Assembly: GCA_963920765.1 (NCBI GenBank) | Contig: OY987252.1 | Span: 4,201,966 to 4,265,965, forward strand | Length of the DNA stretch: 64,000 bases | Origin: Ulota crispa | Lineage: Eukaryota; Streptophyta; Bryopsida; Orthotrichales; Orthotrichaceae | Direction of reading: 5' to 3' | Part shown: in pieces, positions 17,551-53,382 of the stretch | Numbering within the stretch: position 1 is the first letter of the stretch | How the letters are laid out: each line of letters opens with the position of its first letter | Notes under the pieces: generated by a model | What the model saw: the letters and a program-made list of their open reading frames with translations, nothing else | What the model was told of the DNA's origin: nothing | The model's database searches: none | Position numbers and translations under genes: made by a program

Positions 17551-17847
17551 TTTTAGCATTGTTCAATTCTTAGTGTTTTTTGTGGATTTAAAAAAATAAA
17601 AAAAGAATAAAATATGTTTCAAACTAAGTGATTTTTTGTTGGTGTTTTTTATATTGATAGATGGCAATTAATTTTTTTTATAAAAACAGACAATTCTTTA
17701 TTGTCATTTTTTATCAAAAATTTCAATTGCAAAATTATCAATATGAAAAACACCAACAAAATCACTTGATTTGAAACATATTTTATTCTAAATTTAAAAA
17801 AAAGTTGTCCTCAAAAACATTAAAAATTGAACAATGCTGAAAAAAAA

Positions 17848-18010
17848 GGGTGGCAGTATCAAGAAGGGAGGTGGCAGTATTAAGAAGGGAGGTGGCAATA
17901 TCAAGAAGGGAGGTGGCAGTATCAAGAAGGGAGGTGGCAGTATCAAGAAGGGAGGTGGCAGTATCAAGAAGGAGGGTGGCAGTATCAAAAAGGGGGGTGG
18001 CAATATCAAG
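17848..18010. repeat. Minisatellite, 21-bp unit (right arm)
   Basis: About eight copies of a 21-bp unit, GGTGGCAGTATCAAGAAGGG plus A. Because 21 is a multiple of three, all copies read the same heptapeptide GGGSIKK on the plus strand. I take this as a by-product of the repeat and not a gene. Confidence 0.9.
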
Positions 18011-18117
18011 ACCCTATTTTGTTCAAATATCTATAGATTGTTGAAATTTTGATCATATTCTGTTCTAGACATAAAGACATCTCTTGTTGTTTTGTCTAAG
18101 CAATATATACATGAATA

Positions 18118-21680: not shown

Positions 21681-21689
21681 ATTGCAAAG

Positions 21690-21750
21690 GGGGGATGCTA
21701 TTTTGTGAGGCGCGAGCCGTGAGCCGTGAGCCATGAGCCTTTGAAAAAAA
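21690..21750 (+). repeat. Left terminal inverted repeat of the MULE with GAGCCGT heptamers
   Basis: GGGGGATGCTATTTTG is followed by GTGAGGCGC and tandem heptamers (GAGCCGT, GAGCCGT, GAGCCAT, GAGCC). It pairs with 42222-42288. Tandem short repeats close to the end could be transposase binding sites; that is inference. Confidence 0.8.
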
Positions 21751-22236: not shown

Positions 22237-22566
22237 TTATAGATCCAGCTCCAAGCACCCCAAAGATGAAGATAATGTCTGGAGAGCTTGGTGGTGCCTT
22301 CCCAAGCTAGTTGGAGAAGACAATACCTCAACACCAATGGATTCAGTAGCTGAACCATCAATATAGAGTTTAACACTAGGGTCTCTTCTATAAGACCTAT
22401 CCTTCTGAACTACATCACCTTTTGCCACCAAAAAAAGAGCGTGCTGCTTAGCATATGTTGGTAGAATAAAGTCATTGCCCAAACTATTGCTGCAGGTCGA
22501 ATGCTGAACTAGACGCTTAGAGGATTGGCAACGAGGCATAGAGGGATTAGAAGGCCCGCCCTTCAT
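22237..22566 (-). pseudogene. Gene B C-terminal tail segment
   Basis: An open stretch beginning KGGPSNPSMPRCQSSKRL and ending about 550 bp inside the left end of the MULE. It is Ser/Pro-rich and probably disordered, and follows the methyltransferase-like part. Its connection to the preceding exon is not certain. Confidence 0.35.
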
Positions 22567-22769
22567 ACCTGCATTGCAATTATAGGGTGAGGTAGAAGAT
22601 GAGAATATAGGTGAAATAGGGCATGAATTTATAATGATAATGAAATGATCTGATACAAGAGGCTCAGCTTATATATAGAATCTATTGTTGTCCACAAGGA
22701 TATCATGTCCGTGATGTCTTCAATGTCTTCATCCTCAGAGTTTGAAGCCAAGTCCACCCACTACTTTTA

Positions 22770-22900
22770 GATGTACTAGTTACAAGAGGCAATACCAGAG
22801 GTTCCAAGAATTCATGGAATCATCCTCCAGAGCAACCAATTGCTTGTCAAGAGCTCGGCAAGCCCTAATGATAGCGCTTGCATAGTTAAAGTCAAAGCAC
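22770..22900 (-). pseudogene. Gene B methyltransferase-like segment, part 4
   Basis: The minus strand reads IIRACRALDKQLVALEDD. In amino-methyltransferases of the N6/N4 type the SAM-binding motif (DxFxGxG) is followed by 'A-C....R.....E.D', which fits this segment placed right after the preceding exon. A frame change after LEDD is seen, consistent with decay. Confidence 0.5.
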
Positions 22901-22981
22901 ACATCAGGGATAGCTTAAAATTCAACCAAGCAATCACTATAAATCTGAGAATCTCAAAAACTGTAGTTTAGGGTTGATTAC

Positions 22982-23255
22982 CAATTCTAGCAGTGCAATG
23001 CACAACAATGTCCCTAGGAATTGTAGTAGACAATATAAGCATCTGCAGAAATACTTCATCCTTCTCCTTGGCCCCATGGAAAGGTATCCTGTTATGAAGA
23101 AGCTGAGACTCCATTGTTACACAATTGTGTAAGACATCATCCCTCTGAGAGTCAATTTTTGCATTTTGAACTTCGGGGTGCAACAAAATACGGAATTTGG
23201 ATACTAGTGGTGTGTTCAAGTCACGCACAAGTAGCTTAATGCAAAATTTGAGAGT
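22982..23255 (-). pseudogene. Gene B methyltransferase-like segment, part 3 (motif I)
   Basis: The exon starts after TTTAG at 23256 and ends before GTAATC at 22981. It reads NTPLVSKFRIL, then HNRIPFHGAKEKDEVFLQML, then PRDIVVHCTARIG. In related proteins I recall the last part is GDIVVDCTASTG, a glycine-rich SAM-binding motif. Here the Asp is His, so the binding site looks damaged. Confidence 0.5.
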
Positions 23256-23350
23256 CTAAAATAAAGACAAGCATATTGAATTAGGGTGAAGGCTTATAGA
23301 TATATTGCAAACTCAACTTTATTATCAAAAGTCAAATTTAGGGGACTTAC

Positions 23351-23540
23351 AACAAAGTTTGGGTCTTCTGTGTCGATCCATCAAAGTCAGTTTATCCCCG
23401 TTCATTGCTTCACCGCTTTGAATTTAAAGGTACTGAAACATCCGCAGAACCAACGCATAGACATGGACAGTGAGTGAAACACAACCAACGTGCCATTGTC
23501 ATGCAAAAATGACCTTGCAAAATTGAATAGGGATTCTAGA
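23351..23540 (-). pseudogene. Gene B methyltransferase-like segment, part 2
   Basis: The minus strand reads ESLFNFARSFLHDNGTLVVF and then, after in-frame stops, WIDTEDPNFVV before a GTAAGT donor at 23350. 'Alpha helix - DNG - beta strand (LVVF)' is the usual layout of the strand after the catalytic motif in Rossmann methyltransferases. Confidence 0.5.
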
Positions 23541-23560
23541 AAGTTAGGCTTCATCTAATT

Positions 23561-23826
23561 CTAAATTGGCACAAAAGAAGCCAAGAGAGATATGTCAAGG
23601 ACTAGTAGGTTTTTTGGCAAGTTGGCAGATATTAGGTCAACGGCTGTGCGAGAATCCGTATCACCTTGAAAATACCTTGAGTAGTTGTTCATGTGCTGCA
23701 AAAAAGAAGAGTTTAGTGTAATTGAAGACAAATCAAATGCATTGCTCATTAGAAAAAAAGTGAATGCAGGATTTGGGTGCAAAGTTTCTACAACGTCAAT
23801 GAGCGCCGTCATATCGCTAAATTTGG
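23561..23826 (-). pseudogene. Gene B methyltransferase-like segment, part 1
   Basis: The frame reads SDMTALIDVVETLHPNPAFT, then HMNNYSRYFQGDTDSRTAVD, then LPKNLLVLDISLLASF. The LLVLD strand followed by a loop sits where the DPPY-type catalytic motif would be; if so, the prolines and aromatic residue are lost in this copy. The preceding exon ends in a different frame near 23830. Confidence 0.5.
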
Positions 23827-23829
23827 GTG

Positions 23830-24600
23830 GACATCTTCCATGCTATGCTTTGTACGCATGCATTGAGTTCATGGAACTGAAGTAGATAAATTCTTGCGAC
23901 TTAGTGGAGGCGGACCCAAGATTTGCAAACATCAGACGGTTGTGAAGGTCAAAGCTAACACTGCAATGGGCCGCAATAGAAGCTGGACGTTTATATCTCC
24001 TTGCAGATTGTGATATAGCTAGAGAAGCATCCGGAGATGCTTCTAAAGCTGCACTTGCTTGCTCCGCGGCCGTGTGGACCCTTGCACTCTTCCACATGCC
24101 TTAGACAAAACCTTTGCTATCTTTATCTTTAGCTCATTTTGCCTTTCCAGCAGCAATAGCTTGCCTATTTGCAATAGCTTTGGCTTCTTTCACTTGCCTG
24201 GCTTGAGTCCTATCTGCTTGCTTTTCCCTCTACATAAAAATTTTCTTTTGCTCCTTTGGGTCAAGATTAGAAGTGTCCATGTGTCCGTGGTCATCCCCCT
24301 CTGCCACTTTGGTGACTTAAGTTCGCATCACAATAAATTTCCTTTGGCTATTGCTTGCGTCAATTGCCTGCTTACTCACTACCTCCTCTTCTGGACACGT
24401 GCCCAATGCGCAATCCAAGTACCAATAACACCCATGCAAATGTGCAGCTGACCAATCCTTGGCTTGCTTGGGAACATACATACAATCCTTTGACGCCTTG
24501 TCCACCCAGGTGGAGAAAAACGCAGGTAAATCCGCCTCTACAAGAGCATTCTTTGGTACTAATTCATACTTGAAATACTTGCAATTCCCCCAATATACAA
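23830..24600 (-). pseudogene. Gene B central segment with Lys/Ala-rich coiled region
   Basis: One continuous frame, with about four stops, contains NALVEADLPAFFSTWVDKAS, HGCYWYLDCALGTCPEEE and then a charged helical stretch (KEQKK, REKQADRTQARQVKEAKAIA) typical of a coiled coil. It links the ParB-like half to the methyltransferase-like half. The TCCGGATGCTTC stretch near 24035 is part of an inverted repeat within the coding sequence. Confidence 0.5.
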
Positions 24601-24970
24601 CTAAAAGATTAGTGAGAAGTGATGAATTGACTTTGCAACCATGACTTAAAAAATCAAGGCTAGCGTGGCCCTATTGACGCCAGCGTGGAGGGCTCCTTTA
24701 CGCGTGGAATGGAGCTTTTGGCTCCAAAGGCTACAGAGACTACTCTTGGGAGCTCAGAACACAACCCCATGAGCATGTAAGCTCAATTTTACATTAGCTT
24801 GCCGAGTTGAAGGCAGCGCCCACTCTGGCTCTTGGTGTGGACTCCCTGTAGCATAGCATGGAGCTAATGGAGCCAAAGAATCCACGCAATTTGCCAAGGA
24901 GCTTCCACCAAGAGCCACAACAAGCACAACACTGGTTGAGAAAGACAAGTAGCTATCTTTGAGATCATGG

Positions 24971-25240
24971 AGCTGGCATCTTGAGCCCCCTGGCGTGCCG
25001 CGCCAAAGCTTAGGGTCCAACGCCTTGGCGCGCTGCGCCAGGAGGCTCGCAACGCCAGCCCTGGCACGCGCTCTAGATCCATGTAGTGAGTTGTGGATGC
25101 GCTTCGGAGCGCGCGCCAGGGCTGGTATCACAAACCCCTTGACGCGCCGCGCCAAAGCTTTGAGTCTAAAGCCTTGGCCCGATGTGCCAAGGGGCTCGCA
25201 ATGCCAGCTACAACATGCGCGGGCACCCTCACAATTGAAC
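24971..25240. repeat. GC-rich tandem duplication (about 150-bp unit) inserted in gene B
   Basis: Two copies begin at about 24971 and 25121 with AGCTGGCATC or GGCTGGTATC, and share GCCGCGCCAAAGCTT and GGCTCGCAA(C/T)GCCAG. GC content is far above the surroundings, and many words are near-palindromic (TTGGCGCGC, GGAGCGCGCGCC). It sits between two gene B exons, so it is either an inserted repeat or intron sequence. The long open frames here result from the GC bias. Confidence 0.65.
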
Positions 25241-25279
25241 TTCCGCACTAGCATACTTTCCTTCAATTTTCTATAATTC

Positions 25280-25613
25280 ACCTTGTTCATTGATTAGTTA
25301 GGTAGTTTGGCGCATTTGGAAACTCTATGGGCTTCTTATGTCTATTTTCAAAATCATGATTATAGAGAAGGACATACTTGAAGAGGAGTGGTTTAGTTGC
25401 CAAGTTGGTCTACAACTAGTCGTTGTAAGCCTTCAATTTGTTGTACACATCTAGGCCTTCAAAGAAGGCTACAAAGCCATGATCCTTGATCTTCAATCTC
25501 TAGCTCTCGAGGTATTCGTGAATCTCCATTGGCCTTGGGATTATTTGGTAATCCATCCAAATCCTATCTTCAGCTTTGACTTTAGCGTTCAACTCAATCA
25601 TGGAGTCTTCGAG
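25280..25613 (-). pseudogene. Gene B helical segment
   Basis: Starts after a TGGCATTCCAG acceptor. Reads LEDSMIELNAKVKAEDRIWM, then DHGFVAFFEGLDVYNKLKAY, ending KPIEFPNAPNYL. Three in-frame stops. No known motif. Confidence 0.5.
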
Positions 25614-25735
25614 CTGGAATGCCATCATCATCAGCAACAATGTTAATAATCAACATGTATATGTATGCCAAACATTGTTACATTCACATTCGAGAATAAT
25701 GTACAAGTGGTCAATGGAGATGGATTGGGACTTAC

Positions 25736-25954
25736 TCTGATGTAGAAGTAGGCTTTGTTGAGCCAACTCTTGAGATCATTCTCAGTAATTAGCTTTGCTG
25801 GAAATTGGTACGCAAATTTTGAATGTGGATTGGAATTCCAACACTTCAACCACTTCAATTTGTGTTGTGGCAATGCCGAGGCAGTGGTCACGAGCTGTAG
25901 CTTCTCTACAAAAGCATTTGCATGGTCAAGTGGACCAAAGATGGCAGTTAAAAC
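25736..25954 (-). pseudogene. Gene B helical segment ending FYIR
   Basis: The open exon with a TTTTATAAG acceptor and a GTAAGT donor reads VLTAIFGPLDHANAFVEKLQ and ends ENDLKSWLNKAYFYIR. No stop inside it. Composition and clean splice sites support a real former exon. Confidence 0.55.
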
Positions 25955-26490
25955 CTTATAAAAAGTCCATAATTTAGAGATTTCTACAAGTATGGATCAC
26001 AAAGTGTTTGTTTTCCTTTATATAAATACGTGCATTATAGAAAAAAAACCAAGCCCATGTAGCCACCAGGAAGGCTTTTGCAAAAGAAAAATAAATAAAC
26101 TAAAAAAATGTTGAACTCATTAAGATATTGCTGCCTAAACATTTAGCCTTAATTTGGGTACTAAAAAGTCAAGAGCTTTTATTGTATATCACTTGTTTAA
26201 AATTATAACACTTTTTTGAAATACTTAAAAGATGCTAAATCATATATGTAGTCCCTATGTATACATAATACCTAACTTGATACATTATGTCTTTCATTTT
26301 CACGGGACGTTGTGAATGGGACAATCCAAATACATGCATTGAAAAGTTCCTTATTTCTTATATTATCAATTCTAACAAACATTGATTATTTATTATGTTT
26401 TATGAACAAGTATAGAATATATTCACTAATTTAGGATGTTTCCAAGCTCTTTCTTCTATAAGAAAAAAGCCATGCAATCAAAACATGTTC

Positions 26491-26589
26491 CTAAAAATTA
26501 AATGGCATGCGCATTTTGGTCCAGTTGACCATGCATCCACCCTCCAGTGTCATTTCAATTTTTCCACTACTGCTCCAATGTTTTGTGAC
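26491..26589 (-). pseudogene. Gene B short exon
   Basis: Follows a TTTGGTTGCAG acceptor and reads VTKHWSSSGKIEMTLEGGCM, then VNWTKM, with a stop at about 26491. No function assigned. Confidence 0.4.
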
Positions 26590-26775
26590 CTGCAACCAAA
26601 GTAGTCAGAGTACACTTACACAACATTGTTGAACAGAAAAAGTCAGAATACACTTACAAGCATTGCTTCTTTAGTTTTTCTTTGACCTCAAAATATTTGA
26701 TTTGAACCCTACGTTTCTTTTTTCTAGAACTATGAAACTTAATTCCTTTAACTTATGAACTTGCTAGGGTTTTAC

Positions 26776-26970
26776 CTCATCAAGGAATAAGTCCTCCAAG
26801 ATAGGTTTGGCAATAGTAGTGTATTTCCAAAACAACCCTTTCAAGGCTGCGTGTTTGTTAACTGCCCCTTTTTGCATCATTAAAGCTACACTTGCATTGG
26901 TTTTCTCTTCAATGGTCTCATTAGCTCAATACAAGCGGGCGCACTCTTTAGAGGCGTTAGCAATCTCATG
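26776..26970 (-). pseudogene. Gene B exon
   Basis: Bounded by TTATTGCAG and GTAAAA. Reads HEIANASKECARLY, a stop, then NASVALMMQKGAVNKHAALK and AKPILEDLFLDE. Alpha-helical. Confidence 0.5.
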
Positions 26971-27059
26971 CTGCAATAAGAAATCATAAATTCACATACT
27001 TGCAGATCGCTACAAATATCAAAATGGAAAAGAAAAATCCAATTGAACTTATGCCTTAC

Positions 27060-27255
27060 CCAAAAGACGACGTTGATAAACACGTCAGTCACTAAGGAGT
27101 ACCATGTTCTCTCTCAATGCAGGTTGTTGATGCACCTAGTGTATTCCGCTAGAGTTAGACTAGGCTTCAGAAACTCAATCAATTGAACACCTAGGGCTTT
27201 GATCCAATGTAGCGTGTGCACCATGTTTGTTTTCACAAACATTGTCTCGTTGGCC
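27060..27255 (-). pseudogene. Gene B exon after the ParB-like segment
   Basis: Bounded by ATCAAAAG and GTAAGG. Reads ETMFVKTNMVHTLHWIKALG, then LKPSLTLAEYTRCINNL, a stop, then LVTDVFINVVFW. The 'helix after the GNHR domain' position fits the C-terminal helices of ParB/Srx-like folds, but that is inference. Confidence 0.5.
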
Positions 27256-27349
27256 CTTTTGATAAGATTTAGATAGTGTTAGTTAAGAATTTACTTACAA
27301 AGATAAATAAATTCAAACCAGTGAAGAGCAGCAGTTAGACTAAACTCAC

Positions 27350-27992
27350 TTGTTCACGTCGTGCATGGCATGAACTAGAGCGCTGGTCTTTCCTCTCGTG
27401 TCAAGGGCAATGCAATCCACAGCTACGTGCCACGCAGGGTCAGATGGTAAAGTCGCTCAATGTATGTAGTCCATGCTTTATAGCGATGATTACCGTTGCA
27501 TATGAAAAACATGCGGCCAAAAAGATACCTAAGTTTTAGGTTGGCTTGTAAGAATGCCTCAAATTCCTCATTCCGTGTATGCCAAATTCGGTTCCAACCA
27601 TCAAAATCTTTTGCATTGAAACTCCTTTCCATGCCATCTGGATCAGTAATTGCCACATAGAACATGCTGCTTCTTGGTCAATACCCTTATCCAAACCCTA
27701 ATTCAATGTGCTTGACATCTGCTGGAAGTGTAGGGCGGATCAATGGCAACGGGATCATATGGCAAAGAGGGATGTCGAACCTAGAGAAGGACTTTGGCTT
27801 GATGCACACAACTTCAATGGCCACAATAGTGCTGCTCCTCTGCTGAAGTCGGAATTTGTCCTGCCCCATGGTGGATTTGACAATGTCAACTGCGGTCCCC
27901 ACATGATTGCTCTACACTTGCAGTGATGCCATTATTGTAGGTGCTGCCGGCACTTCAGGTTCCGCCATATTGTCAATGAAATCAGGAAGGGC
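27350..27992 (-). pseudogene. Gene B ParB/sulfiredoxin-like segment
   Basis: Starts after GGTTGCAG and ends before GTGAGT. It reads FDIPLCHMIPLPLIRPTLP, then FNAKDFDGWNRIWHTRNEEF, then GRMFFICNGNHRYKAWTTYI, and after a frame change DPAWHVAVDCIALDTRGKTS and ALVHAMHDVNK. G-x-H-R-x-x-A is the signature of the ParB/Srx superfamily (nucleotide-binding box), usually preceded by an address-like 'I-P-x-x-I' strand, here MIPLPLIRP. Two stops lie near 27675-27692 and one frame change near 27430. Other readings, such as a plant-specific fold with a chance GNHR, cannot be excluded. Confidence 0.55.
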
Positions 27993-28665
27993 CTGCAACC
28001 AAGAACAATTTCAAATGAGAACAACTGTAAGGGAGGGACTCCTTAGAGGAGTAGCACTATCAAAATTGCTAGAGAGAATTTAGCACTTGCACACGTCCTA
28101 ACTGATCAAACGATCAAGAAATCGTCCCTGCAGCAAAGTTGCAAAGGGTTTAGGGGTCTAGAGTTAGGGTAACTCTAAAGCGGCCATCATTTTCTGGTTT
28201 GCATTACAATTCTAAACGCGAATGTTGGTGCTGCATTCACCTAGGTATTGCCAGCGGTGCTAGCAACGATCAGACCTCTGCTTAGTGCAAATAGGATTGG
28301 AAGTACTTGCATGCGTACGTCAAGTAATCAAATACATACACCAAGCGACTAAGTGTAGTTTTTACCTAATTAGAGTTCGATTGAGAACAACATTGCTTGT
28401 GTCGAATTTACAGAATGCCAACTATTTTACCCATTTGGAACCTCCTCTACAGCAATCAATTTCTAGTTTAGTGGCATGTACACCATAACCCAGTGTTGCA
28501 GGAGTCGGTAGCAAGAAAGGAAACTGAACATGGAGAATGCGGCGCGGGAGGTGGTCACTGATGATTGTGGAACATCTTCAACCCTGAAATTGTCAAATGG
28601 AGCTTTGCAAACTCTTTGCGCTAGAAAGGTGAGGGTTGGAAGAGGACCGCAACGATTTACTGTTG

Positions 28666-28765
28666 GAAGAGGATGCTAGCAGCAAAGAGAGAAGAGGATG
28701 GCAGCGGCAAAGACAGAAGAGGATGGCAGCGGCAAAGACAGAAGAGGATGATCGAGGCAAAGACG
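28666..28765. repeat. Four copies of a 25-bp tandem repeat
   Basis: The unit is GAAGAGGATGGCAGCGGCAA plus AGACA; copies two and three are identical and the outer ones diverged. It is purine- and GC-rich and lies in an intron-like part of gene B. It makes both strands open locally, which explains open frames that I do not call as genes. Confidence 0.85.
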
Positions 28766-29303
28766 GCTGGGGCAAAGAACTGCGAGCGCTAGGTGGTGCA
28801 AGAAGGAGACGGAGGGGAGCGCCGGCTTGAAAGACATGGAGAGGGGGGAATGCAAGGGTCACGACGCAAAGACCATTGCTGCCCAATTTAGGGTTTAGGG
28901 CAAGTGAGGCAATAAAGCCGTGCAACAGTGATCTCAAAAGACAAGCAACGCGATAGTGGAGGGTATTGGGCTTATGTTAGGATACGCTCGCCAAGCAGAA
29001 CTAGGAAATGGAGGACTAAATCCTAAATTGTGAAGGGCTCGCAACGAAGCAAAGTTGTTGCAATGTGTTGATGTGTTTCATCAAACCACAAAGTGGGTCC
29101 GCCATTGCCAAACGGCTTTCCCCAAAAATAAGTTGACATTTGGAAAAAAAACCTGAGCATGACCTCTACCAATGTCATGGAGTCTACATAAAGTAGGCAC
29201 CGTAAATTGCAAATTCATATCTCGTGCTATGAATTTGTTTCTTTGCCCTATATAGTAATGCTGGCACATCAATATTTTTTGACAAGAAGAAGTTCATACT
29301 CAC

Positions 29304-29357
29304 AATGAATAAGAGGGTGTCAGCATCCAGTCTTAACATCTGATTTTTGATGCATAC
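29304..29357 (-). pseudogene. Gene B small exon
   Basis: A 54-bp exon bounded by CATTTTTAG and GTGAGT that reads VCIKNQMLRLDADTLLFI. A further exon-like stretch lies at about 29100-29280. Confidence 0.4.
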
Positions 29358-29452
29358 CTAAAAATGAGGCGGTTCTATTACAAAGGATAGCATCTTTGAA
29401 CTTAGTCATTCAAGCAACAATCAAAATAGGAGATGGATGGTGCTGTTTATAC

Positions 29453-29960
29453 CTGCACATAAGTGACAACAATGGGAATTATCTCTTTGATACTAATAAT
29501 CATTCTAGCTGCGTCGTCGTTGCTCTCTTCAATTGCAATCAAACGCCACACTTTTTGCCGCCCATGGTACGTGCCTTCAACATCTGCAAAGCACTCGGCT
29601 TCATCATCACTATACTCCAAGGTGCGCATTATCTGGTCCTCTACATTTGCTTGATTTGACAAAGACTTCCTTTGCGGCCTAAACCTTCTAATCTGCTTTG
29701 CACTTGAAACAAGACTTGGGACTTTCTCTTCTTCTGTCTCTCTCCTGTCAAGAGTGTTCTCTAAGTGTGAGAAAATAACAGAAGTGTTGGTAATTTGAAT
29801 AAATGTAGAAGTGCTTATGACATTTTGGGCTATACTCTGCAACAGCATTAGTACAGGTGTCCACCTTTGCAAGATTTGACAAGAAGAAGTATTCAGTGCT
29901 TTTGCTGCCAAATTCATTATGTAGGACATTGAAGTAGCCCTTCCATCTCAGTATCACCAT
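29453..29960 (-). pseudogene. Gene B N-terminal segment
   Basis: Two overlapping frames suggest two exons. One reads VILRWKGYFNVLHNEFGSKS and the other ETEEEKVPSLVSSAKQIRRF, then EYSDDEAECFADVEGTYHGR and IKEIIPIVVTYVQ, ending at a CAG-GTATAA donor. The charged stretch suggests a linker. The true start codon is not certain. Confidence 0.45.
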
Positions 29961-30647
29961 GTCAGGATCAAATCAACAGAGTGCCAAAGTGTCATCAACA
30001 AACGGCTGCAGTGAATCCTAAATTTTAGGTGACGGTGATGTAGCTTCCTATGCATAGCATCCGCCGTCTAGTTCATTAGTGCCGTGTTTGCTTATTGAGT
30101 TCAAATTTTTGACGCTGCCGTCATGTAATTATTTTGCTTCTACAAAGCACATTACAATGTAGAGTCATTGTTCTCCATGATAAACCTGTGTTTAGTGTTT
30201 TCCGGCTCTATTGGATTCATTTTGTAGCTAAGTGCTTTGTGATTGCCATTCCTTTTATAGCCTGTGCTTTGTTTGTAGAAGTAACAGTAGTTGTGCTGCC
30301 GTCCTCTATTCTCATGGCCGTTTGTCTTCTGCGCAGCTAGACGGTAGGGATGGCGCTTGTGTATCAGCACTCTTCCAATATTCTTGTTGTCTTTCCTATT
30401 GAGAGTGATTGGAACGCTGTAGTGTCCCCTTCTTGATTGTCAGTGCGGTAAAATTTGGTAGTTTGATCATTGCACACCAATGAGGAGATTTGCAATGCTG
30501 TCATAGGGGAAAATTTTGCACTACTTTGGCCTCTTTCCTAATGCAAATGTAGTGCAAAGCAATGGTCACTACCCTGTGTTGTTACAAGGTGTATGGCCAA
30601 GTCTCTATTTTCATTGAACTCTTGCTACAATAGTTGTGGAGTCTACT
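29961..30647. promoter_or_regulatory. Divergent intergenic region between genes A and B
   Basis: About 0.7 kb separates the first coding sequence of gene B (minus) and gene A (plus). This head-to-head layout would place both promoters here. I see no clear TATA box that I would trust. The stretch has no exon-like sequence. Confidence 0.4.
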
Positions 30648-31875
30648 ATGACTAATCCTTTGTTGGGTACTCCTGTTCTATTCATTATCAAAATTGAACT
30701 AGATGCGGAAGTAGTACAGATCCTAAGCAATGAATCAAATGCAAATTCACCTGTAATAGCAATCACTCTTGGTCAGACCTCCAAAAGTTCCTTGTTAGAC
30801 GATTCTAAGAGGTTTAAGGACTACGGTTTCTATAGTGATCCATCTTCCAATCCGGAACAGTCTCTTAGTGTTGTGGATTTACTGAAGCAAATACCTTCCA
30901 CAAAGGGGTCACGTAGTGTGTTCAAAAGCATAGACTACAACACCATTTGTGTCAATAAAGTAGAGTTTCTTCCAACAGTTTTCAATGGTGACGTTGTGTT
31001 TGAGCTCCCAGTGTTGCTTGGTTTTGTCTCCCAGTTGTCAGCAAGTAGAATGCACAGCATGGACAAACGGCACGATGGCCATGCGTGGACAAGAACAATT
31101 ACATCCAACATTCTAAACATGCTAGGCTTGAATTTTAGAACATTGATTTGCATTGGTCATTTGCGGTGTACTTTCAATAGTTGTCCTTATTTGGAACGTG
31201 TCAGTCAATCTTCAAGCATGAACAAGACACAGTGGGAAGGCTCCACACCCTTGCCATTTTCAGTGGGTGATTTAACTCCTCCTGGGTCCAGTATTGTCTG
31301 CAAGATGTGCAAGTTAGTATCAAGGTGTATTGCGGCCTACAGTGCAAGAGTCTATTATGTTTTTGGTGGGATGCAGCAAACTCAAGTTTGTATACACGTA
31401 GGGAATAATTCTCACCTAGTTAAACTAAGAGTACAGCATGACATGGTTGCTAGAACATCCACATTGGTGCAGAAATAGGTAGAGAGGTCCCCTTTTGCAA
31501 AAACGTCTGCCCTCATATTAGATGCAACAAAATTATTGTTGGAAGAGTTGCTACTTGCACCCAAAGGCGCAAACTTGATGTATTAGACATCCATTAGCTC
31601 TACCCAGTTTTAGAGAAATGCAAGTCAATGTCCTCTCTTAGTATTAGGAGTGAGGTATCATCCTTTGGTCATTTTTGTCAGTATATATGGTGGAATTGAT
31701 AATTTTACAAAATTGCGAGGATGCAGCCGTTGGGCATTTATCTAGTCTAGCGTGTTTCTAGGTCAGAGGATTGATGGTACAAAGGTTTTTTGTGTTCAAA
31801 ATGGCAAAGATGGGCCCTGGGAATAGAGTGGATCTTGTTCATTGTATGCAAATTGGTGGTGACCTTTGCGACTGC
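30648..31875 (+). pseudogene. Gene A N-terminal part with zinc-finger-like DNA-binding region
   Basis: The first ATG is at 30648, with an open frame to 31478. Visible: DDSKRFKDYGFYSDPSSNPE, FNGDVVFELPVLLGFV, MDKRHDGHAWTRTITSNILN, and the finger candidate C-x4-C (RCTFNSC) with C-x2-C (CKMC) and a later C-x-H...H (CIHVGNNSH). The rest, with stops, reads VERSPFAKTSALILDATKLL and GNRVDLVHCMQIGGDLCDC, ending exactly at the CACTA-like insertion. Confidence 0.65.
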
Positions 31876-34800
31876 CACAAGTAAAAAATAACATCCTATA
31901 TGATTGCATGTTTTATGATTGGGTGTCCTAAATGATTGTAAACCAACTATGATGCGACTGAAAAATAACTGACATTGAAATAGTTGTTCTTTAGTCATTC
32001 TTTTGAACGGTTCATCTGAAATTATCCATAGAATCATATTTTTCCGAATTTGTAAATACATTCTCATCCATAAGTAGATGAGGTTGTGTCAGACACCTTT
32101 TAGCTGGGGTAGTGGTTTAGTTGTATGCCCAAAACATGAATTTATAGTATTACTAAGGTGTTACTAATGAACTACTAAAGAATTACAACTTTCATTCCAC
32201 ATCATTTTCATGCAAAAACACATCTTTCACGGTTTTCTCTCAAAATTTTGGGATTGTCTGGTAGCATTATTTTTAGCTCTTTCTTGCTCTCTTGAGATTA
32301 TGTGAACACACACTATTGCAATAGTCACTTTTTAGTTGTTTAGCACGTTTTGTGGCACTACTAGTTTACTACTAGGATATAACTTCTGTAATTGAATTGG
32401 TTTTGAGTAAATAGATTAATGAAGTTGTTAGGGGAATAAGTGGCGTAAGGTTGGATGTTGCTAGGTACTAGTTCTATACTTACTAATGTGCAACTAATCC
32501 ATGACTAATAAATGACTTCTACATGGTTTTGCCTCTCCTTTTGAGTTAATATTGTTCTTTCTATCGCATTAATTTAATGATTAGGATTTGATCTTATTTC
32601 ATGGGTCATGGGTGAGGAGCAAGGAATATTTTAGGATTTGGAATTTAGGGATTTAGGGTTTAATGGGAGTTAAAGAAAAGTGGTCATAGATAACATGTCA
32701 CCACATCAGTTAAATGACTACAAAATGACTACAAAATGACTATAAGACACGTATGGAAGAACCCAATCATAGTCATGCATTTTTTGTCATTTAGAAGTTC
32801 ATGGTTTTTATTCTTCTACTACTATTATTGAAATATAACTTGAACAAATTATTTTGGGATTTACGTTGTTGTTTTTTTTTTGGGCTTACATATTGTGGTT
32901 TTCAAGTCAAGAAAGGTCTTGCTCTACCTATTCCAATTCCAACCAACTATTTGAAAGGGGTGTAGTTTGGTTAGTTCATTAAACTGTATGTTTAAGAGTT
33001 TAGTCATATTTTAGTTTTACAAGAGTTGTAGTTAGGTCACTATAATCTTCTCCAAGCATGTGGTAGTTATACAATAGTTGTCTTTGAGTCATACATTCAA
33101 TACATTATTATTATTAATGTTATTGTTATAATTATCACTATAATTATTGTTATTTTGATTATTTTCATAATAAATAACAATTTCAAAGCTATAATTAAAG
33201 CTCTTTAAAAGCTTAAAAATTAGTGTTTCATATATATAGATAAATTTTATCATGATTTTGATTATTTTTTAAAGATAGACGTCAAACAAATTTAAAAAAA
33301 GAAATCTTTTAAAATAAAAATATAAAATTAATAAATTCAAATATTAGAAGTTAAAACTTTAAAATTTGCAAAAAAAATTGTTTCAAATGATTTACAAGAA
33401 TTTTAGCATGTAAATAGTTCATTTTGATGTAAATTTATGTTTTAAACATATTGATGATGTTAAATTTGCCAAAAAAAAATATTATCTAAGTTTTAATAGC
33501 ATTCACCCTAAAAATCAAGTTGTAGTTTTTGAGTCAATTTGAACCCTTCATTGAGATTATGGTTGGTAGTTTGTAAAGTGAAAATGCGGCTGCCACCTTT
33601 AAGTTTAAGGTTTAGCTATGTAAACTTGATTTGTTGGCTCTGTGCTCTTTAGAGAGTTTGTTGACTCTATGCACTTGTCAAGGTTTGTTAGCTCCATGCA
33701 CTTGTTAAGGTTTATTGGCTCCGTGCTCTTCTCTGGTTTTGTTGGTTCTATGTTCTTTGCACATTTGTTTGCTTTGCGCATTTGTCAATGTTTGTTGGCT
33801 TTACGCTGTACAACATTGTAACTCATTTTTAGGTTGTGCTTTTATTGTTTATATGAAATTGCTAAAATTGCAAGCATGTGCAAATGATGTTGACTAGGTT
33901 TAGAAAGCAATGTGTGGGATAGTTTGTAAATGCTAAATGAACAGTGGATATACTTTGAGGTTTTGAAAACCTTGAACCGTATATCTAAATTTTACATAGA
34001 ATCTGCAGTGAATTGTGACTAAGTAACAACTGTGAGTTGACCAAATTGTGATTGCATGGCGATTACTCCTTAACTGCATAGCAACTAAATTGTGATTTTA
34101 TTGTGATTGTAATGGGACTTCATATGGAATGTACAATGACTGTATTGTGACTGTAATGTAACATGACTACATTGTAATGTTGTTATGTCTAAATGATATC
34201 TGCATTTGAGATTAGTTTGTGACTCTTGTTTGTGACTAAATTTTGTATGCATGTGTGAATGGTTGGTGACTAAATTTTGTGTGCTTGTGTGAATGGTTGG
34301 TGATTGTGTTCTGTTTGAGGAATTATTGCACTATGAACTCCAAATCTCATGTGACTGTATGACAACTATATAGTCACTTCAACTTTGCTTCAACCGCTCT
34401 ATATTGACTAGGTTGAGACTACTTTATAATAATTAAACCGCCAACATTGAAACTAAAAATGACGACTATGTGGTGACTAATGTAGAACTACCCACTACCA
34501 TTACTAGTAAACATCACTATTTCTACACAATAAGCATTTACTGCAAACTCTAAACACCCAAAACCAAACAGTAATCAACTTAAGAACAACTAATATATGA
34601 CTAAGTAATAGCTAAAATATGACTAAGTGGAATGTACAAACAACTAGAAAATAACTAACCAAGCACTAGAAAATGACTAACCAAACACTACAAAATGAAT
34701 GTAAGTGCTCATTGGAGCACCGTGGCACCTCGATTGAAGACTAACAAACAACTAATATATGACTAATGAAAATTATGGGCTCACTTATCCGTTACTGATA

Positions 34801-35278
34801 CATGACTAAATGAGAATTATGCAACCACTTATCCGTTACTAATATATGACTAAATGATAGTTGTGTTGTCACTTATCTGTTATTGAATGTGGATTAGCAT
34901 TTTGATTACAAATGCAGATTTTACAAAGCTGTTACTGAGATCAAGATACGTTGCCACATGATAGTTTGATTTTGTCAGTGGAAATGTAATGGCACCATTG
35001 GGAATTGGGAAAATTTAAATGCCTTCAAGAAAAAAGGGGCAACTGGATTCAAGAAAGAGAGAACAATTCTTTCTTCCCAATAAAGACAAAGCTTGCAGAA
35101 TGTAAAGGATGAGATATTGTAATGTCCTAAATGATTGAATGACAAAGACTACTAAACAACTAAAACATGACTAAATTGTGACCAAATGAGACCAATCATG
35201 ATACAGTCATTTAGTGGGAAATGACTCATTTTTTAGTCATTTGTAGCAATCATATAGGAACGTTGTTTTTTACCTGTG
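31876..35278. mobile_element. Non-autonomous CACTA-like element, 3.4 kb, TSD TGC
   Basis: The ends are inverted: CACAAGTAAAAAATAACATC and, on the other strand, CACAGGTAAAAAACAACGTT, both continuing into CCTATATGATTGC. TGC flanks it on both sides (31873-31875 and 35279-35281), a 3-bp duplication as made by CACTA transposases. Dropping the element and one TGC rejoins gene A in frame as GGDLCDC-WLMFDHV. The inside is rich in ATGACTAA/TTAGTCAT words, densest near 32690-32760 and 34560-35240, like the subterminal motif arrays of CACTA elements. No coding capacity, so it depended on a transposase in trans. The CACAA/CACAG start differs from strict CACTA. Confidence 0.82.
33625..33815. repeat. Degenerate tandem repeat with GTTTGTTGGCTC unit
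   Basis: Five to six degenerate copies of a unit of about 33 bp beginning GTTTGTTGGCTCTRTGCRCTT, inside the CACTA-like element. Local minisatellite. Confidence 0.6.
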
Positions 35279-35596
35279 TGCTGGCTGATGTTCGATCATG
35301 TGAAGCATGTAAAACATTGGACTACAATGGCTTGCCACATCTACAATTCCTTCTATTGCCGCATGCTGACCATTGCAGTCTGTGACATGCAATCCAAAGA
35401 TGTTGTTGCTCAAACCTTATTTTGGAGGAATTTGAATGTAGTGTGCAAGCAAAACAGGATACACAACCCAAATTTCAAAGGGTTCATTGTCAATAGTGCT
35501 CAAGCAAATTAGAACGCGGTTTGCTTAGTATATGGTAATGGTGACATGTCTTTGCCTATGATAGACTGAGAACATACATGTTTGTTTCATTGGGCA
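35279..35596 (+). pseudogene. Gene A transposase core, part 1
   Basis: Reads CWLMFDHVKHVKHWTTMACH, then FYCRMLTIAVCDMQSKD, then NPNFKGFIVNSAQAN and HTCLFHW. The two Asp-bearing stretches correspond to the D-D part of a MULE DDE core; the second Asp appears replaced by Asn. A stop splits the region after SAQAN. Confidence 0.65.
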
Positions 35597-36215: not shown

Positions 36216-36312
36216 GTGTACAACAATATTCTTGTTAATAGTGCAATTTTGGTAGAAATGAAATTGTCAATTTTTTTTTTTTTTTTTTTTTCTCAAATTT
36301 TTTGAATGTGTT

Positions 36313-36706
36313 GATCTCCTTGCGCAATGAAGTAGACCCTTTGGATCCAAAGGCTCTCCTAAACTCGCAAAGGAGTTTTTCATTGGAGAGTTCTACGTGA
36401 TTTAGTCTTTGGAAATGTCGTTGTTGATATGAAGTTTGCTGTGGAACATGCTGTTTCTTGTATTTATTTGATTTTGACCTCTTTCCTAATAAGGCAATTG
36501 TTTTTTCTTATTTCTATTTGTAAAAAGATTAAAAGTTGTAACGTCATCAATGATGATGTCAATGAACTACAATGTGGTGACATGAATTTTCTCAATGCAA
36601 AATTTGTTTTGTCGTTGAGTTCATGTTGGATCTAATTTGGCGATCTCCCTAGAGTTTGAGGGAGACCCTTTGGATCCAAAGGCTCTCTGCCCCAAGTAAG
36701 GGAGAT
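36313..36706. mobile_element. Short TIR element with palindromic TTTGGATCCAAA ends
   Basis: Both ends carry a 60-bp block with GATCTCC or its complement at the outside and the palindrome CCTTTGGATCCAAAGG inside. A T-run lies just upstream (36272-36291). It sits between two gene A segments. No coding capacity; target duplication unclear, superfamily open. Confidence 0.55.
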
Positions 36707-38039: not shown

Positions 38040-41000
38040 TGTGAGTCCCAGATTTAGTACCAGAAGTCAAGAATTTATTTTTTATTTTGCTTAGCTTTGA
38101 AATTACATCAATATAAATAGAATAACCATTTATGTTGATTTAGAGTAGTTAGACCAAATAGTTAGCGGTATTCTATTTACCCTTCTCTATTTGGTAGGTC
38201 ATTAGGAGCAATTTAGTGAGAATTAGTCAATTTTAGTTAGTTTGAGTGACACACACATAGGGGGGTTTGGGATCCCCTCCAAAAGTCCCCACTAAATTAA
38301 TTAGAGAGGGTTAGTTTAGGAAACGTTACTAGGGGCACCATGGCCAAGGGCCGCATCACCCAGTTCACATCACCATATCATTTGATGCGTCTACACCCAA
38401 GGTTCCCAATACCTTTTGCTTTTCAGAGAGCGTGATTCCAAGCAATCAACCTTGCTAGGCTGTCAATCAACCCCGGTCAAAAGAGGTTGACAAATGTCAG
38501 TAAAATGCCACCAAAATTTATGGAAGAGTTTCTCAAGGATTTAAGACAATCCCCTAAGTTTCAAGTTGTTTTGATAGCGGCAAGGCCTCGAACAACAACA
38601 TCTAGCTTATTTCAAGAATGCACGCTACATCCAATTTCAAGATCTTATCCATTTGGAGCCCAATTGACAAAATCAAGGAGTGTTTCCCGGCTCCCCCAAC
38701 AACGTTGGAAGACCTTGGGAAGTCAATTTCTCATTTTGGGATGAATTTCCAATTTTGCATTTTTCATCCATCCACCCCTAACCCTTCATTCAAGATTCCC
38801 AATGCCTTATAGCTTGGAATTGGAAGTTTCAACAACCAAAACCGGCTATTTTGAGTGCAAAGAATCCAATGCCATAGTCCGTTTGTCATTTGGAGCTACG
38901 CTTCAAAAGTCATGCTGAATTCATCTAGATTTCATCCATTTTGAGTTTTTCTTAGATTTTAGGTAGATTTCAAGGGATCTATGGATCTCCTAGTTAAAGG
39001 GCCGAGGTGTCCTCCCCCAAATGTATAAAGGGAGGCCCACCTCCTCCCAAACCATCACTTTTATCACTTGTAATCTCTCTTTTTGGTCACCATCACTTTC
39101 TCATGTTTAGATCACTTGGACCCATCACTCATCACTTGTATCTTTTCTTGTAACCCCTCACTTAGCATTTGCCCATCCCCCTTGTCCTCAAGCCCTTTTG
39201 TGCCCAAACCTTAGAGTCGCCTTCTTTCCTTGCCAATAGTTAGAATCTTGAATGAGGGGTGTTAGTACTTCTAAGCAATTGGGAATATTTAGCACATAGT
39301 CCTTTCTTTTTGTCATACTAACGTCTAGGAAATTGGATTATGACATGGCAATGTTGATCTTCCATACTTCCTAGAAGTCCTAGTTAGGATTGTGGTCACT
39401 AAGTAGTTGTTAGAGTTCCATAGTTAGGATAGGTTCACTTGTCAAGCAATTCCCATTAGTTCAATCAGTAGCAGCTCTCATCAGTCCCCCTCCGAGAGGC
39501 CTAGCAAGTAGCAATTCTCGTCAGCCTCCTCTCTCTCTCAGCCTACATCCATTCTCACATCCCTTCAAGAGCTCAACCATCCCCATAGCCTCACAAGAGC
39601 CTAGCTAGCAGCAATTCCCATCAATTCCTCCTCTCTTGAGCCTACATTCACCCTTACAACCTCTTGAGAGCTGAGCTAGCAACAATTCCCATCAGTCTTC
39701 TTTCTAAGAGCTAAGCTAGTAGCATGCTCATCACTTCCTTTGCCGCAAGCTCAGCAGTTGCAATTCTCATCAGTTCCCCTCCTCTCAAGCCTACATTCAC
39801 CCTCATAGCCTTTTGAGAGCCCAGTCATAGCACTCTCATCAATTCCCCTCACCGAGAGCTTAGCAGTAGCAATTCTCATCAGTTCCTCCCCTCTCGAGCC
39901 CTATAGTCATCCTCATAGCCCCCCAAGAGCTAGCTAGCATCAAGACCCATCAATTTTCCCTCTCTTGAGCCCTATATTCATCCTCATAGCCTCTCAAGAA
40001 CCCAGCAGTAGCAAGACCCATCGATTTTCTCTCACGAGCCTTGCAGTCATTCTCACAGCCCCCCAAGAGCTAGCAGTAGCAAGACCCAACAATTTTCCTC
40101 TCTCAAGCCCTATAGTCATCCTCATAGCCCCTCAAGAGCTAGCTAGTAGCAAGACCCAACAATTTCCCTCTTTTAAAGCCTTGTATTCATTCTCATAGCC
40201 TCTCGAGCACCCAGCAATAGCAAGACCCATCAATTTTCTCTCTCAAGCTCTGTAGTCATTCTCACAGCCTCCTGAGAGCTAGCAATAGCAAGACCCATCA
40301 ATTTTCCTCTCTTGAGCCTTGTAGTCATCTTCATAGCCTTCCAAGAGCTAGTAGTAGCAAGACCCAGCAATTTTCCCCCACTTAAGCCCTGTATTCATCC
40401 TCACAGCCCTTGAGAGCTAGCTAGTAGCAAGAACCATCAATTTCCCCCTCTCAAACCCTATATTCACCCTCACAGGCTCTTGAGCACCCAGCAATAGCAA
40501 TTCCCATCAGTCTCCCCTCTCTCAAGCCCTATGTTCATTTTTCTAGCCCTTCGAGATCCTAGCCAATGGCATCTCTCATCAGTTCCTCCATGGGCCTGCA
40601 TTCACCCTCACGACCCTCACGGCCCTCACGAGAGCCGTGGCGCCTTAGTTGCCTCACAGAACTCTGAACAACGGAAGCAGAGGCCGATACCCGGCAGCTA
40701 CTCGGCAGCCTAGTTGATATTGGACAGCCTTTGGCAACTCCGGCCCTCTCCTCTTTGTTCGGACTAGCCTCAAGGTCCAACCTCCAAGGCCAGGCAAAGA
40801 AGATAGGGTTAATTAACTCTCCCTTCTTGGGATTCCCCCCCCTTCCACCAACTCTCTTTGCTCCTTAATAATTTCCTAAACTACTAGGCTAGGTGTGAAT
40901 AGGAGCCCATAAAACTCCAAATTACTTCACTAGTGGCTTGTGGTTACTTCATTATTTGGCATACGGGATAGTAAGCTGTCATATTAAGTGGACAAATAGT

Positions 41001-42221: not shown

Positions 42222-42288
42222 ATGAAATCCGGTTCACGGCTCACGGCTCACGGCTCACCTCTCTACACTTGCAAAATAGCTTCCCCCC
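42222..42288 (-). repeat. Right terminal inverted repeat of the MULE with GAGCCGT heptamers
   Basis: On the minus strand it reads GGGGGGAAGCTATTTTG, then a short spacer and three GAGCCGT-type heptamers. It is the inverted partner of 21690-21750. Confidence 0.8.
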
Positions 42289-42297
42289 ATTGTAAAG

Positions 42298-44034: not shown

Positions 44035-45800
44035 TCAAGAACTACGTGTCACTTTTCCCTTTTTCAATTTGGGATTGGATTTCTCATGCTTTCCCCGCAA
44101 TAGTGATACAACTTCCGGGTCTGTGCCTCCGAAAGATGTCTCTGAGTCATCCAAACTCTCCTCACTTGAAGTTGACGAGGAGGGTTTGTCATCAAGGTCA
44201 ATCTTGAGTGGAGATGTCAACTTTCGCGAGCGTTTAGAGGTCGTTTCCCTCTTGACAGGGCTTGGTACCCTGGCGACACTTCCACTATCCGGAGTTACTT
44301 GGATATGGCTCCAAATACGCAAATTGGGTGTAGACCCTTCTCCGGGTCTGAAGTCAACTTTGCTGGGCAATTGCGTGGAAGGAGGAGTTCTCACTTCCTC
44401 TTGTTCCTCCTGAATGGTAGGATAAGGGGATTGAGGGGGTGGAGTCTTCCAAGCTGGAATGGCTTCCTTCTCTTTCCCAGATCCTTCTCCTTCCTTTGAT
44501 TTCTTGCTCTGACCATGCAAGATCGTTTGCATCTCCTACAACACTTCCTCCATCTAGCCTGCATATTCCACCAACACACCTACAAGCTTGGAACCTATTG
44601 TTGGCCCTATCTTCAGTACCTTAGCGTCAAACAGTTTAGACTTGTTCACAACATCTCCCGAAATAGCGACCATATTCTCGAATCAAACCATATCATGGTA
44701 GGCGCGTTGGATTAACTTGTCTCCCTTTGCTTCCTATTGCAGTTGTGTTGTGAGTGCTTCACCTGCCTAGATAAATTTTGCACCTCCAATTCACTCTTCT
44801 TCTTGAGCCGAAAGAGCTCCTTTATTTTATCAAAGATCTCAAATTGATGGTAAACATCCATCAATATGGTTAGTTTGTAAAGAATTTCTCTATCAAACAT
44901 AATTGCCTTTTGGATTCCCTCAATCTGACTAACGATATCAGAGAAAGGTTGCTTATCCTTATAGTCCTTAGGATCCTTCCTGACCGGCTTCACTAGTGTT
45001 CTTGCTGCCTCAGCTGGCTCCTTGCCTTTTCCTTTGGCTTCTCTGTGCCTCTCCGATTCTAGAGGCTCTTGTTCTTCTACTTCCGGATCCGCTTCCGGTT
45101 CTGCTTTGGGTTCCGGATCCGGGGTGATGTCAAATCTCAATATTACCTCGGCGGCTTCATAAGCTCTACTCTCCTTGTCCTTTAGTAATCCCAAATGCTT
45201 ATACAAATGGAACAAGAAGGAACTGAGCCTTGACGCTTTAGTATTCCCTAACAATTTGATTAACTTGAGTACTAAGTCTCTAATGACTATCCCCCAATTC
45301 ACCACTCTTTTTGCGGATAGTGCACCAAAGATGGTGCTAGCGTAGGTAAGGGTGAGGGTGGTAGGTCTATCCGGAAGCAAAATAGGAACCAAGAATTCCA
45401 AGACCCTCTTATCCCAGGAATTCTTACAATTGGCGATCAAGCACCTGTTCTTAGAGTGGGCTTCTATAGCAAACTTCCCCTCACAGTTTTCCTCTCCCCA
45501 AGGACAAACTCCCTTGCTTACACTTTTGAAGGAGTACAGACTAGTCCAAATCCCCTTAGACCAAGTATCTGGGCGACCTTGTTTGGAGTTGTCCTACTGA
45601 CTTGCTAGAGTTCCTAGCAAATCTCGGACCATCTCTTTGTCCTTCAAATTCTAGGGAACCCTAAATAATCCCTCGCATCCCATCCATGTCAGATTGTCTA
45701 CTTACATCTTTCTTTGGCTAGGATCTGAGGGAACTCTCAAAACTACCAACCTAAGTGCAAACGGCACTTCCTCTCTTTGGTTTGCCTTGCCCATGGTTCC
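44035..45800 (-). mobile_element. Broken retroelement gag-like region (fossil)
   Basis: Minus-strand coding remnant with a conserved-looking N-terminal half (motifs such as LLPDRPTTLTLTYA and VVNWGIVIRDLV), an acidic Pro/Glu-rich linker, a coiled-coil-like stretch and a Ser/Pro-rich C-terminal part. From memory this resembles gag-like proteins of plant retroelements; no protease, reverse transcriptase or integrase is visible nearby. I found no LTRs around it. It is broken by a few changes. A host-derived gene with the same domain is the alternative. Confidence 0.45.
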
Positions 45801-50697: not shown

Positions 50698-50790
50698 ATT
50701 TTTGCATTTAACTTTGACTATATTATTGGGTGGCAAATATACAAGTCATGCAATTTTCCCCACCTTGCAATAATAATTCAAACTATACAA

Positions 50791-52394: not shown

Positions 52395-52399
52395 CTGTA

Positions 52400-53382
52400 C
52401 AGTACAGTACATTAAGAAACTAGTGAATTTGCCAAGTCCACTACTTTAGTTTAATTTCAGCTTCAGCTTTTGTGTATATTGAAACAAGAATGTCTTAGGA
52501 TGCAACATTGACCCTGCAAGATTGCATTCCGCAAATCTTGATACGGCATACTATATATTGAAAGTCATGGTTTGGCATTTCTAAGAAAGATAGATTAAAT
52601 ATTAGGTTTTGCCTTGGCGTTAAAGGATGTAGATAAAAAACAATAGCAAATAGCATGAACACGTCCTTTCTTCATCAGCTATGCAATATTTTGTAGTATT
52701 GACCAGACTATTATTTTGTTTTATTTATTTTTGTAGTATAAAGCTAGATAAACATCATTGACAATTTTTGTAGCAATATGGAATTTATAATTTATTGTTA
52801 AATGTATACACAGTTGTAAAACAATATTGACTATTTTGAATTAATTAGGAATTTTGTTTGACAAATAAATAAGTTTTCATATAGATTTTCCATATGATAT
52901 TTATTATTGCAGGTGTGGGGTGGAGGGAGGGGGGTGGAGAACTTTGTCACCATAAGAACAATTCATTTTTTGCAGTACCAAAATCATATGAAAAAGACAA
53001 AGAGACCTTGATTGCAATGTCACTACAGGATAAACCATGTCGAAAGTACAGAATATTGACAAAAGCATGTCTGGCATGATAATTTTAGAGGCAATGAGCA
53101 GGAGTCTATCAATTGTTGACGAGAATTGCTCCAAGGCCCCACTCACCATGTTCAAAGGATACTTTTTGCAATAAAACCATGAATTGGGGAATTCTAGAGT
53201 TACTGTTTGTCTAATCTTGAAAAATTGTATCTGAGGTCCTATCATGGCAATTGAGGCAAAACATTCATAATGAGCTCCTACTCTTTGGTAGAGTTCAACT
53301 GTAGAAAGAACAGTGGAAGCCTAGAAAGAACAAATGATGATTCTTGTCATTTTCTTTATCTGCATTCCCACTTGACATAATT
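52400..53382. other. Region without a recognisable gene
   Basis: AT-rich apart from a G-rich patch at about 52915-52940. Nothing definable. Confidence 0.4.

Follow-up and report, generated by a model that had tools for sequence, protein, structure and literature searches.

A dead 20.6-kb DNA transposon in the moss Ulota crispa with a divergent accessory gene that ends in a methyltransferase-like relic

Introduction

The Ectocarpus transposon Sola1-1_Ec32 (superfamily Sola1, 21.5 kb), as presented in PMC12477816, encodes on the strand opposite its transposase a predicted 1104-aa protein that joins a ParB-like part to an N4/N6 DNA methyltransferase. The same account cites similar proteins from green and red algae (Iyer 2011, Petroll 2025) and puts forward a class of accessories that would act on the transposon encoding them, by binding and modifying it. 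Here we describe a decayed 20.6-kb element of the moss Ulota crispa that carries a gene of apparently the same kind. It lies in a stretch of 64,000 nucleotides (assembly GCA_963920765.1, contig OY987252.1, positions 4,201,966 to 4,265,965, forward strand), called the window hereafter.

Other described systems bear on this locus. Rotifer N4CMT, an N6_N4 enzyme that is stated to have no eukaryotic homologs, has its catalytic half first and its S-adenosylmethionine (AdoMet) motif I last, and it shows that a permuted bacterial enzyme can function in a eukaryote (PMC8885841). Target-site duplications of 8-11 bp are named as a characteristic feature of Mutator-like elements (MULEs), in which terminal repeats that span hundreds of bases are common (PMC6446971). 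The VANC proteins of Arabidopsis VANDAL MULEs are described as targeting tandem arrays in non-coding parts of the elements and as causing loss of methylation (PMC5735166).

The Ulota element is, like Sola1-1_Ec32, a giant DNA transposon with a gene on the strand opposite the putative transposase, and this gene seems to combine a ParB-like and an N4/N6 methyltransferase-like part; its pieces, summed by hand, amount to about 1,200-1,350 codons, against the 1104 aa given for the brown-algal protein. Compared by description, it differs from that Sola1 element in its 9-bp duplication, in its broken gene and in a ParB likeness at motif level (PMC12477816). Four viral-contig proteins recognised by motif (L079, L081, L082 and L085) also hold both parts in one chain, the ParB-like one first; unlike the window gene, they have canonical motifs and uninterrupted frames. 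The order of the methyltransferase-like part is that of the permuted N6_N4 enzymes (PF01555; E. coli YhdJ, viral-contig enzymes, rotifer N4CMT), with the catalytic half first and AdoMet motif I last. Unlike these enzymes, the window gene falls below detection by the curated model, its motifs IV and I are not intact, it is transposon-borne and it apparently has introns. The likeness to VANDAL elements, again by description and not by sequence, is that of a MULE, a probable one here, with an accessory protein and tandem arrays, here a 69-bp array; VANC, in contrast, causes loss of methylation (PMC5735166).

The first-pass annotation knew of no description of such a gene. That statement does not hold, since the kind is in print for a brown-algal transposon, with green and red algal proteins cited there (PMC12477816). 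A search by title in the open-access literature, which cannot exclude one in print, found no plant MULE with a ParB-methyltransferase gene among the titles listed. The gene is thus known in kind, and its MULE-type setting and its host may be new. The reading that we favour, with rather better than even confidence, is that of a dead large DNA transposon with terminal inverted repeats, most likely a MULE, with a transposase on the plus strand and on the minus strand an accessory gene that ends in a methyltransferase and probably has a ParB/sulfiredoxin front.

Results

Ends and composition of the element

The element spans 21,689/90-42,288 and contains both the gene remains and a divergent transposase-like gene. 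Its ends, and an array inside the right one, are as follows.

21,681-21,689 (+): left target-site duplication ATTGCAAAG, 8 of 9 bases matching the right copy
21,689-21,739 (+): left terminal inverted repeat, GGGGGGATGCTATTTTG and then GTGAGCC repeats; the first G possibly belongs to the duplication
39,855-40,532 (+): tandem array of 9.7 copies with a 69-bp unit, within the right end of the element
42,231-42,288 (-): right terminal inverted repeat, plus-strand end CAAAATAGCTTCCCCCC, from inverted-repeat search and alignment
42,289-42,297 (+): right target-site duplication ATTGTAAAG, from comparison with the left copy

An inverted-repeat search followed by gapped alignment paired 21,682-21,739 with 42,231-42,295 at a score of 58.5. 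The highest score among 200 shuffles was 38.0, and 160 comparisons with other window pieces, made on both strands, gave at most 37.0. Read inward, the left end begins with GGGGGGATGCTATTTTG and the right end with GGGGGGAAGCTATTTTG, and on either side one GTGAGCC copy opens at offset 30 and one at offset 37; five of the eight GTGAGCC sites of the window (both strands) are located at the two element ends. The 9-bp duplications agree at 8 of 9 bases and represent a single insertion. Both 9-mers are near-palindromic, so that part of them could instead be read as inverted repeat, but the direct-repeat reading is the better fit. The 20.6-kb element is a real, dead transposon copy with a divergent accessory gene.

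The composition of the element differs from that of the window flanks: its GC content is 0.400 versus 0.326 and 0.341, and its observed/expected CpG ratio is 0.43 versus 0.26 and 0.27, the element being less CpG-poor.

The minus-strand accessory gene

The pieces of this gene occupy the minus strand between about 29,950 and 22,240, and the transposase-like gene diverges from it. This place and orientation, opposite a putative transposase gene within one element, agree with those of the transposon ParB-methyltransferase accessories, to which the gene may belong. The pieces, all on the minus strand, are as follows.

29,450-29,737 (-): N-terminal piece, no stops in 96 codons
27,349-27,992 (-): ParB-like piece, with LPLIRP at 27,732-27,749 and GNHRYKAW at 27,471-27,494; DPAWHVAVDCIALD at 27,400-27,441 follows after a change of frame
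26,773-27,278 (-): pieces after the ParB-like part, 27,278-27,060 and 26,985-26,773, stops present
25,377-25,987 (-): middle pieces 25,987-25,730 and 25,616-25,377, no Pfam match
23,348-24,598 (-): long frame, 10 stops in 417 codons, whose end (about 23,612-23,348) is the motif V/VI-like part LHDNGTLVVF
22,971-23,255 (-): open piece of 95 codons, with a KLLVRD strand and DIVVHCTARIG at the place of motif I
22,783-22,914 (-): piece with RACRALDKQLVALEDD, the helix after motif I and the place of motif II
22,240-22,668 (-): terminal open stretch of the gene, 143 codons

A multi-exon minus-strand gene had been proposed in the first-pass annotation. The strings on which it was built are indeed all on the minus strand, namely GNHRYKAW, LLVLD (within 23,582-23,611), HDNGTLVVF (within 23,477-23,509), DIVVHCTARIG (22,980-23,012) and RACRALDKQLVALEDD (22,819-22,866). 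They do not form one intact gene: the pieces lie in different frames and contain stops, and the gene seems, as we infer, to be split by introns. Given these several frames and stops, the copy is dead and the protein cannot be made as it stands. In the long stretch 24,598-23,348, the other two minus frames have 22 and 25 stops and the plus frames 19, 11 and 24, one plus frame thus being nearly as open. A degenerate codon pattern for [ND]GNHRxxAW had a single match in the window and none in 100 shuffles. The minus-strand frames look like real gene remnants.

Also seen within this gene were a GC-rich hairpin at 24,968-25,212 with 106-nt arms (72%), and a loose 54-nt repeat (agreement with the reference copy 61% and 78%) that is present both here (24,682-24,735) and in the transposase region (36,305-36,687).

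The methyltransferase-like part

The C-terminal part was compared with a reference of relatives of six N6_N4 enzymes in viral contigs. Out of 80 loci 57 were used, 23 without both canonical motifs in an open frame being dropped; the C-terminal profile was made from those of the 57 that fit an additional motif pattern. With a hand-chosen join of the pieces, HHalign gave 32.05 over 166 columns, a score reached by none of 200 shuffles (maximum 27.96). When the pieces were simply joined end to end, it gave 26.13 over 141 columns, again above all shuffles (0 of 300, maximum 23.91). The controls, which were the reversed sequence (19.5) and four other pieces of the window, ranged from 10.97 to 19.52. 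The alignment proceeds from motif V/VI through the KLLVRD strand and motif X to the strand opening motif I, which is the permuted order, and the hand-chosen join extends it across motifs I and II. The catalytic part therefore precedes AdoMet motif I, and the similarity observed is collinear with the permuted N6_N4 family (PF01555). The score was 17.4 against Dam-type enzymes (25 sequences) and 10.3 over 8 columns against MT-A70 (15 bacterial sequences), with no MT-A70 similarity found.

In HMMER, the motif I piece scored 6.9 and 8.3 bits against the C-terminal profile in two joins (0 of 1000 shuffles each), and the motif V/VI piece 2.7 bits against the whole-domain profile (2 of 1000); for the joined domain the values were 1.6 bits (7 of 1000) and, with the C-terminal profile, 4.3 bits (3 of 1000). 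The N6_N4 profile placed 23,405-23,554 first (4.4 bits, E 1.1) of the 636 stop-free window segments reported. In a splice scan of 11,991 spliced fragments, the C-terminal profile scored best at the junction 23,006/22,876 (5.6 bits, next 5.3), a small margin and a junction other than the hand-chosen one. The single-sequence fold of 23,812-23,348 had a predicted local distance difference test (pLDDT) value of 41. Among the 50 Foldseek matches listed of 220 for this model, 16 were DNA N6-adenine methyltransferases (E 0.75-3.8) representing three enzymes, M.BceJIV, T4 Dam and E. coli Dam; the first two listed were unrelated, and none had E <= 0.001.

A methyltransferase match had been predicted for 23,826-22,770. 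It came in part from our own profiles and from the collinear HHalign alignment, which lies above all shuffles, and not from Pfam, PHROGs or NCBIfam. Taken together, these comparisons give moderate support to a methyltransferase likeness of the C-terminal part of the gene.

The ParB-like part

The GxHR block of the front part was the second-best of about 128,000 six-frame positions when compared with ParB. Together with the following strand its score was reached by 4 of 5000 shuffles, these two blocks having been picked after a test of five blocks. The signature of ParB and sulfiredoxin, GxxR followed by a strand, is therefore present, in blocks chosen after the first test. Of 16 ParB reference loci, 14 were used, with frames located by a profile after a regular expression had recovered just one. 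Whole-domain ParB profiles were reached by 33 of 1000 shuffles, and by 16 of 2000 with 20 ParB sequences; allowing an insertion in the ParB-like piece brought no gain (18 and 50 of 300 shuffles). The ParB HHalign score was reached by 4 of 200 shuffles with an alignment of 12 columns, and the GNHR piece ranked fifth of 481 reported stop-free segments. A PF02195 search in three phage records gave no match.

A motif scan of a prokaryote genome collection returned 13 stretches whose motif is related. Three of them are Mumia proteins that carry DGHHRYAAW and that we take to be DUF1015-type; the other ten are open frames, 15-224 codons long. With 3 of the 13 presumably DUF1015-type, the motif alone is no proof of ParB. 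As the whole-domain tests and the fold are too weak to carry it, the ParB reading depends on the motif together with the strand after it, and on the published case. The ParB/sulfiredoxin match proposed for 27,350-27,992 was thus recovered at motif level (GxHR and the following strand), with none in Pfam, PHROGs or NCBIfam, and a ParB likeness of the front part is weakly supported.

The transposase-like gene

Two groups of plus-strand pieces look, by eye, like one transposase.

30,618-31,475 (+): N-terminal part by eye (CIGHLRC..CPYL), divergent open frame of 286 codons
35,258-37,985 (+): core and C-terminal pieces by eye (FKGFIVNSAQAN, TIRAWW, ACNLAEIVHSKW)

The accessory gene had been called a MULE partner gene in the first-pass annotation. 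The element ends fit this label, with a duplication of 9 bp (one insertion only) within the 8-11 bp of MULEs and with terminal inverted repeats of about 51-58 bp, shorter than the MULE norm of hundreds of bases (PMC6446971). The label rests on these ends, as the transposase has no Pfam confirmation. The element most likely belongs to the MULE superfamily.

The transposase is seemingly broken by an insertion or inversion, with sites at 31,750-32,088 (-) and 35,215-35,285 (+). Inverted arms at 31,883-31,907/35,246-35,270 (80%) and 32,322-32,353/35,142-35,173 (81%) flank an AT-rich stretch within it.

Other features in the window

Outside the element, a DUF4218 remnant was detected at 55,497-55,763 (PF13960, E 1.7e-14). 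DUF4218 is known from plant CACTA elements, and this remnant probably derives from one; it fits the look of the window, that of a repeat-rich plant genome. The 398-nt arms of an inverted repeat, at 50,782-51,179 and 52,006-52,403, are 94% complementary and separated by 826 nt, which has the look of a young fold-back or terminal-inverted-repeat element. A minus-strand open frame of 293 codons in a GC-rich stretch (44,715-45,593) had no Pfam match at E 0.1, and a tandem array with a 21-bp unit is present at 17,807-18,032.

Discussion

A number of results speak against a ParB-methyltransferase gene in a MULE. No ParB or methyltransferase match was obtained in Pfam, PHROGs and NCBIfam (three pieces each in the latter two), and for the minus-strand pieces neither PF01555 nor PF02195 was listed by Pfam at E up to 10. 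The Pfam transposase models, including the MULE transposase PF10551, gave no match to the decayed plus-strand pieces. Scans of viral contigs with the ParB-like, methyltransferase-like and transposase-like pieces returned one stretch each, none confirmed as a relative; two motif patterns had no match in the same contigs, and tblastn of window pieces in 50,697 phage records had none. With three random reference subsets of 20 sequences, HHalign scores fell to 18.5-22.0 unguided and 18.5-26.8 guided (no shuffles stand behind these values), some of them not exceeding what the reversed control had scored with the full set. In a set of 603 sequences, 600 of them shuffles, the 552-residue reading came 522nd of the 528 reported with the plain whole profile and 40th of the 253 reported with the C-terminal one. 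The splice scan put the best whole-domain scores at 27,663 and 17,499 (9.2 and 9.0 bits, against 6.0 and 5.3 in the candidate region); for the ParB profile the top place was 38,782 with 9.0 bits, and the candidate region came fourth with 6.3. In the five-block ParB test, 89 of 3000 shuffles scored as high as the candidate, as did 57 of 2118 six-frame windows, and neither ParB nor sulfiredoxin was among the 50 matches listed of 592 for the ParB-like model (pLDDT 46). Finally, DISL stands at the place of motif IV, where [DNS]PP[YFW] is expected, and HCTARIG at that of motif I, where DPFxGxG is expected. The catalytic motifs not being intact, we file the gene as a relic resembling the PF01555 family and not as a member of it.

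The library searches also returned rows that we rejected as unrelated: weak Pfam rows such as PF07069 (E 0.13-0.16) and PF23519 (E 0.017), and one row in each of the PDB sequence searches (E 1.7 and 1.5).

These results leave room for other explanations. The methyltransferase relic could be real and the front something other than ParB/sulfiredoxin, with GNHRYKAW a chance or convergent motif in another domain. The weak whole-domain tests, the fold matches listed and the presumed DUF1015 proteins among the prokaryote stretches would agree with that, but the GxHR block and its following strand jointly score well, and the brown-algal protein has the same pairing of ParB and methyltransferase (PMC12477816); we consider such a front unlikely, though well worth keeping in mind. 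The whole could also be an unrelated decayed gene whose similarities arise from chance or from chosen joins. The empty library searches, the lower scores with smaller reference sets, a splice join picked by eye and the poor plain-profile ranks all point that way. An unguided join nevertheless still exceeds 300 of 300 shuffles, in the order of a permuted methyltransferase, which makes an accident of this kind improbable.

In a further reading, of the Pack-MULE type, the gene would be a host gene taken up by the transposon and not an accessory of the element itself. This has in its favour the seeming introns and the reported tendency of MULEs to acquire host gene fragments (PMC6446971). In the same element, however, the transposase-like gene is divergent from the accessory gene, as in Ectocarpus (PMC12477816), and the rotifer N6_N4 enzyme is stated to lack eukaryotic homologs (PMC8885841), so that a host donor gene is not obvious; to this origin we give slightly less credence still. 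As to the superfamily, another one with a 9-bp duplication would account for the unmatched transposase pieces and for terminal repeats that are short for a MULE, and the published ParB-methyltransferase gene itself sits in Sola1 (PMC12477816). Against it, duplications of 8-11 bp are given as a MULE hallmark (PMC6446971), and we regard an assignment outside the MULEs as rather unlikely.

Under the favoured reading of a MULE with a ParB-methyltransferase accessory gene, the protein, translated from a spliced transcript, would have begun, probably, with a ParB/sulfiredoxin-like domain and would have ended in a permuted bacterial-type N6-adenine or N4-cytosine DNA methyltransferase. The ParB-like part might have bound DNA of the element, for instance the terminal GTGAGCC repeats or the 69-bp array at 39,855-40,532, which are candidate targets by analogy. 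The methyltransferase could then have marked the bound DNA, with the benefit that the element stays expressed or that its ends are recognised. The Ectocarpus precedent and the tandem arrays targeted by VANC suggest, by analogy, an element that marks or protects itself. It is possible, although doubtful, that land plants harbour giant MULE-type transposons with a self-targeting ParB-like DNA methyltransferase that places N6-methyladenine or N4-methylcytosine at the ends or tandem arrays of the element itself, an accessory class known from algal transposons persisting in another superfamily.

If this is true, the ParB-methyltransferase accessory would not be bound to a single transposon superfamily. 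Should intact copies exist, one could ask directly whether a transposon of a eukaryote uses a bacterial-type enzyme to methylate itself, a question that bears on the patchy occurrence of N6-methyladenine and N4-methylcytosine in eukaryotes and on the answers of transposons to silencing.

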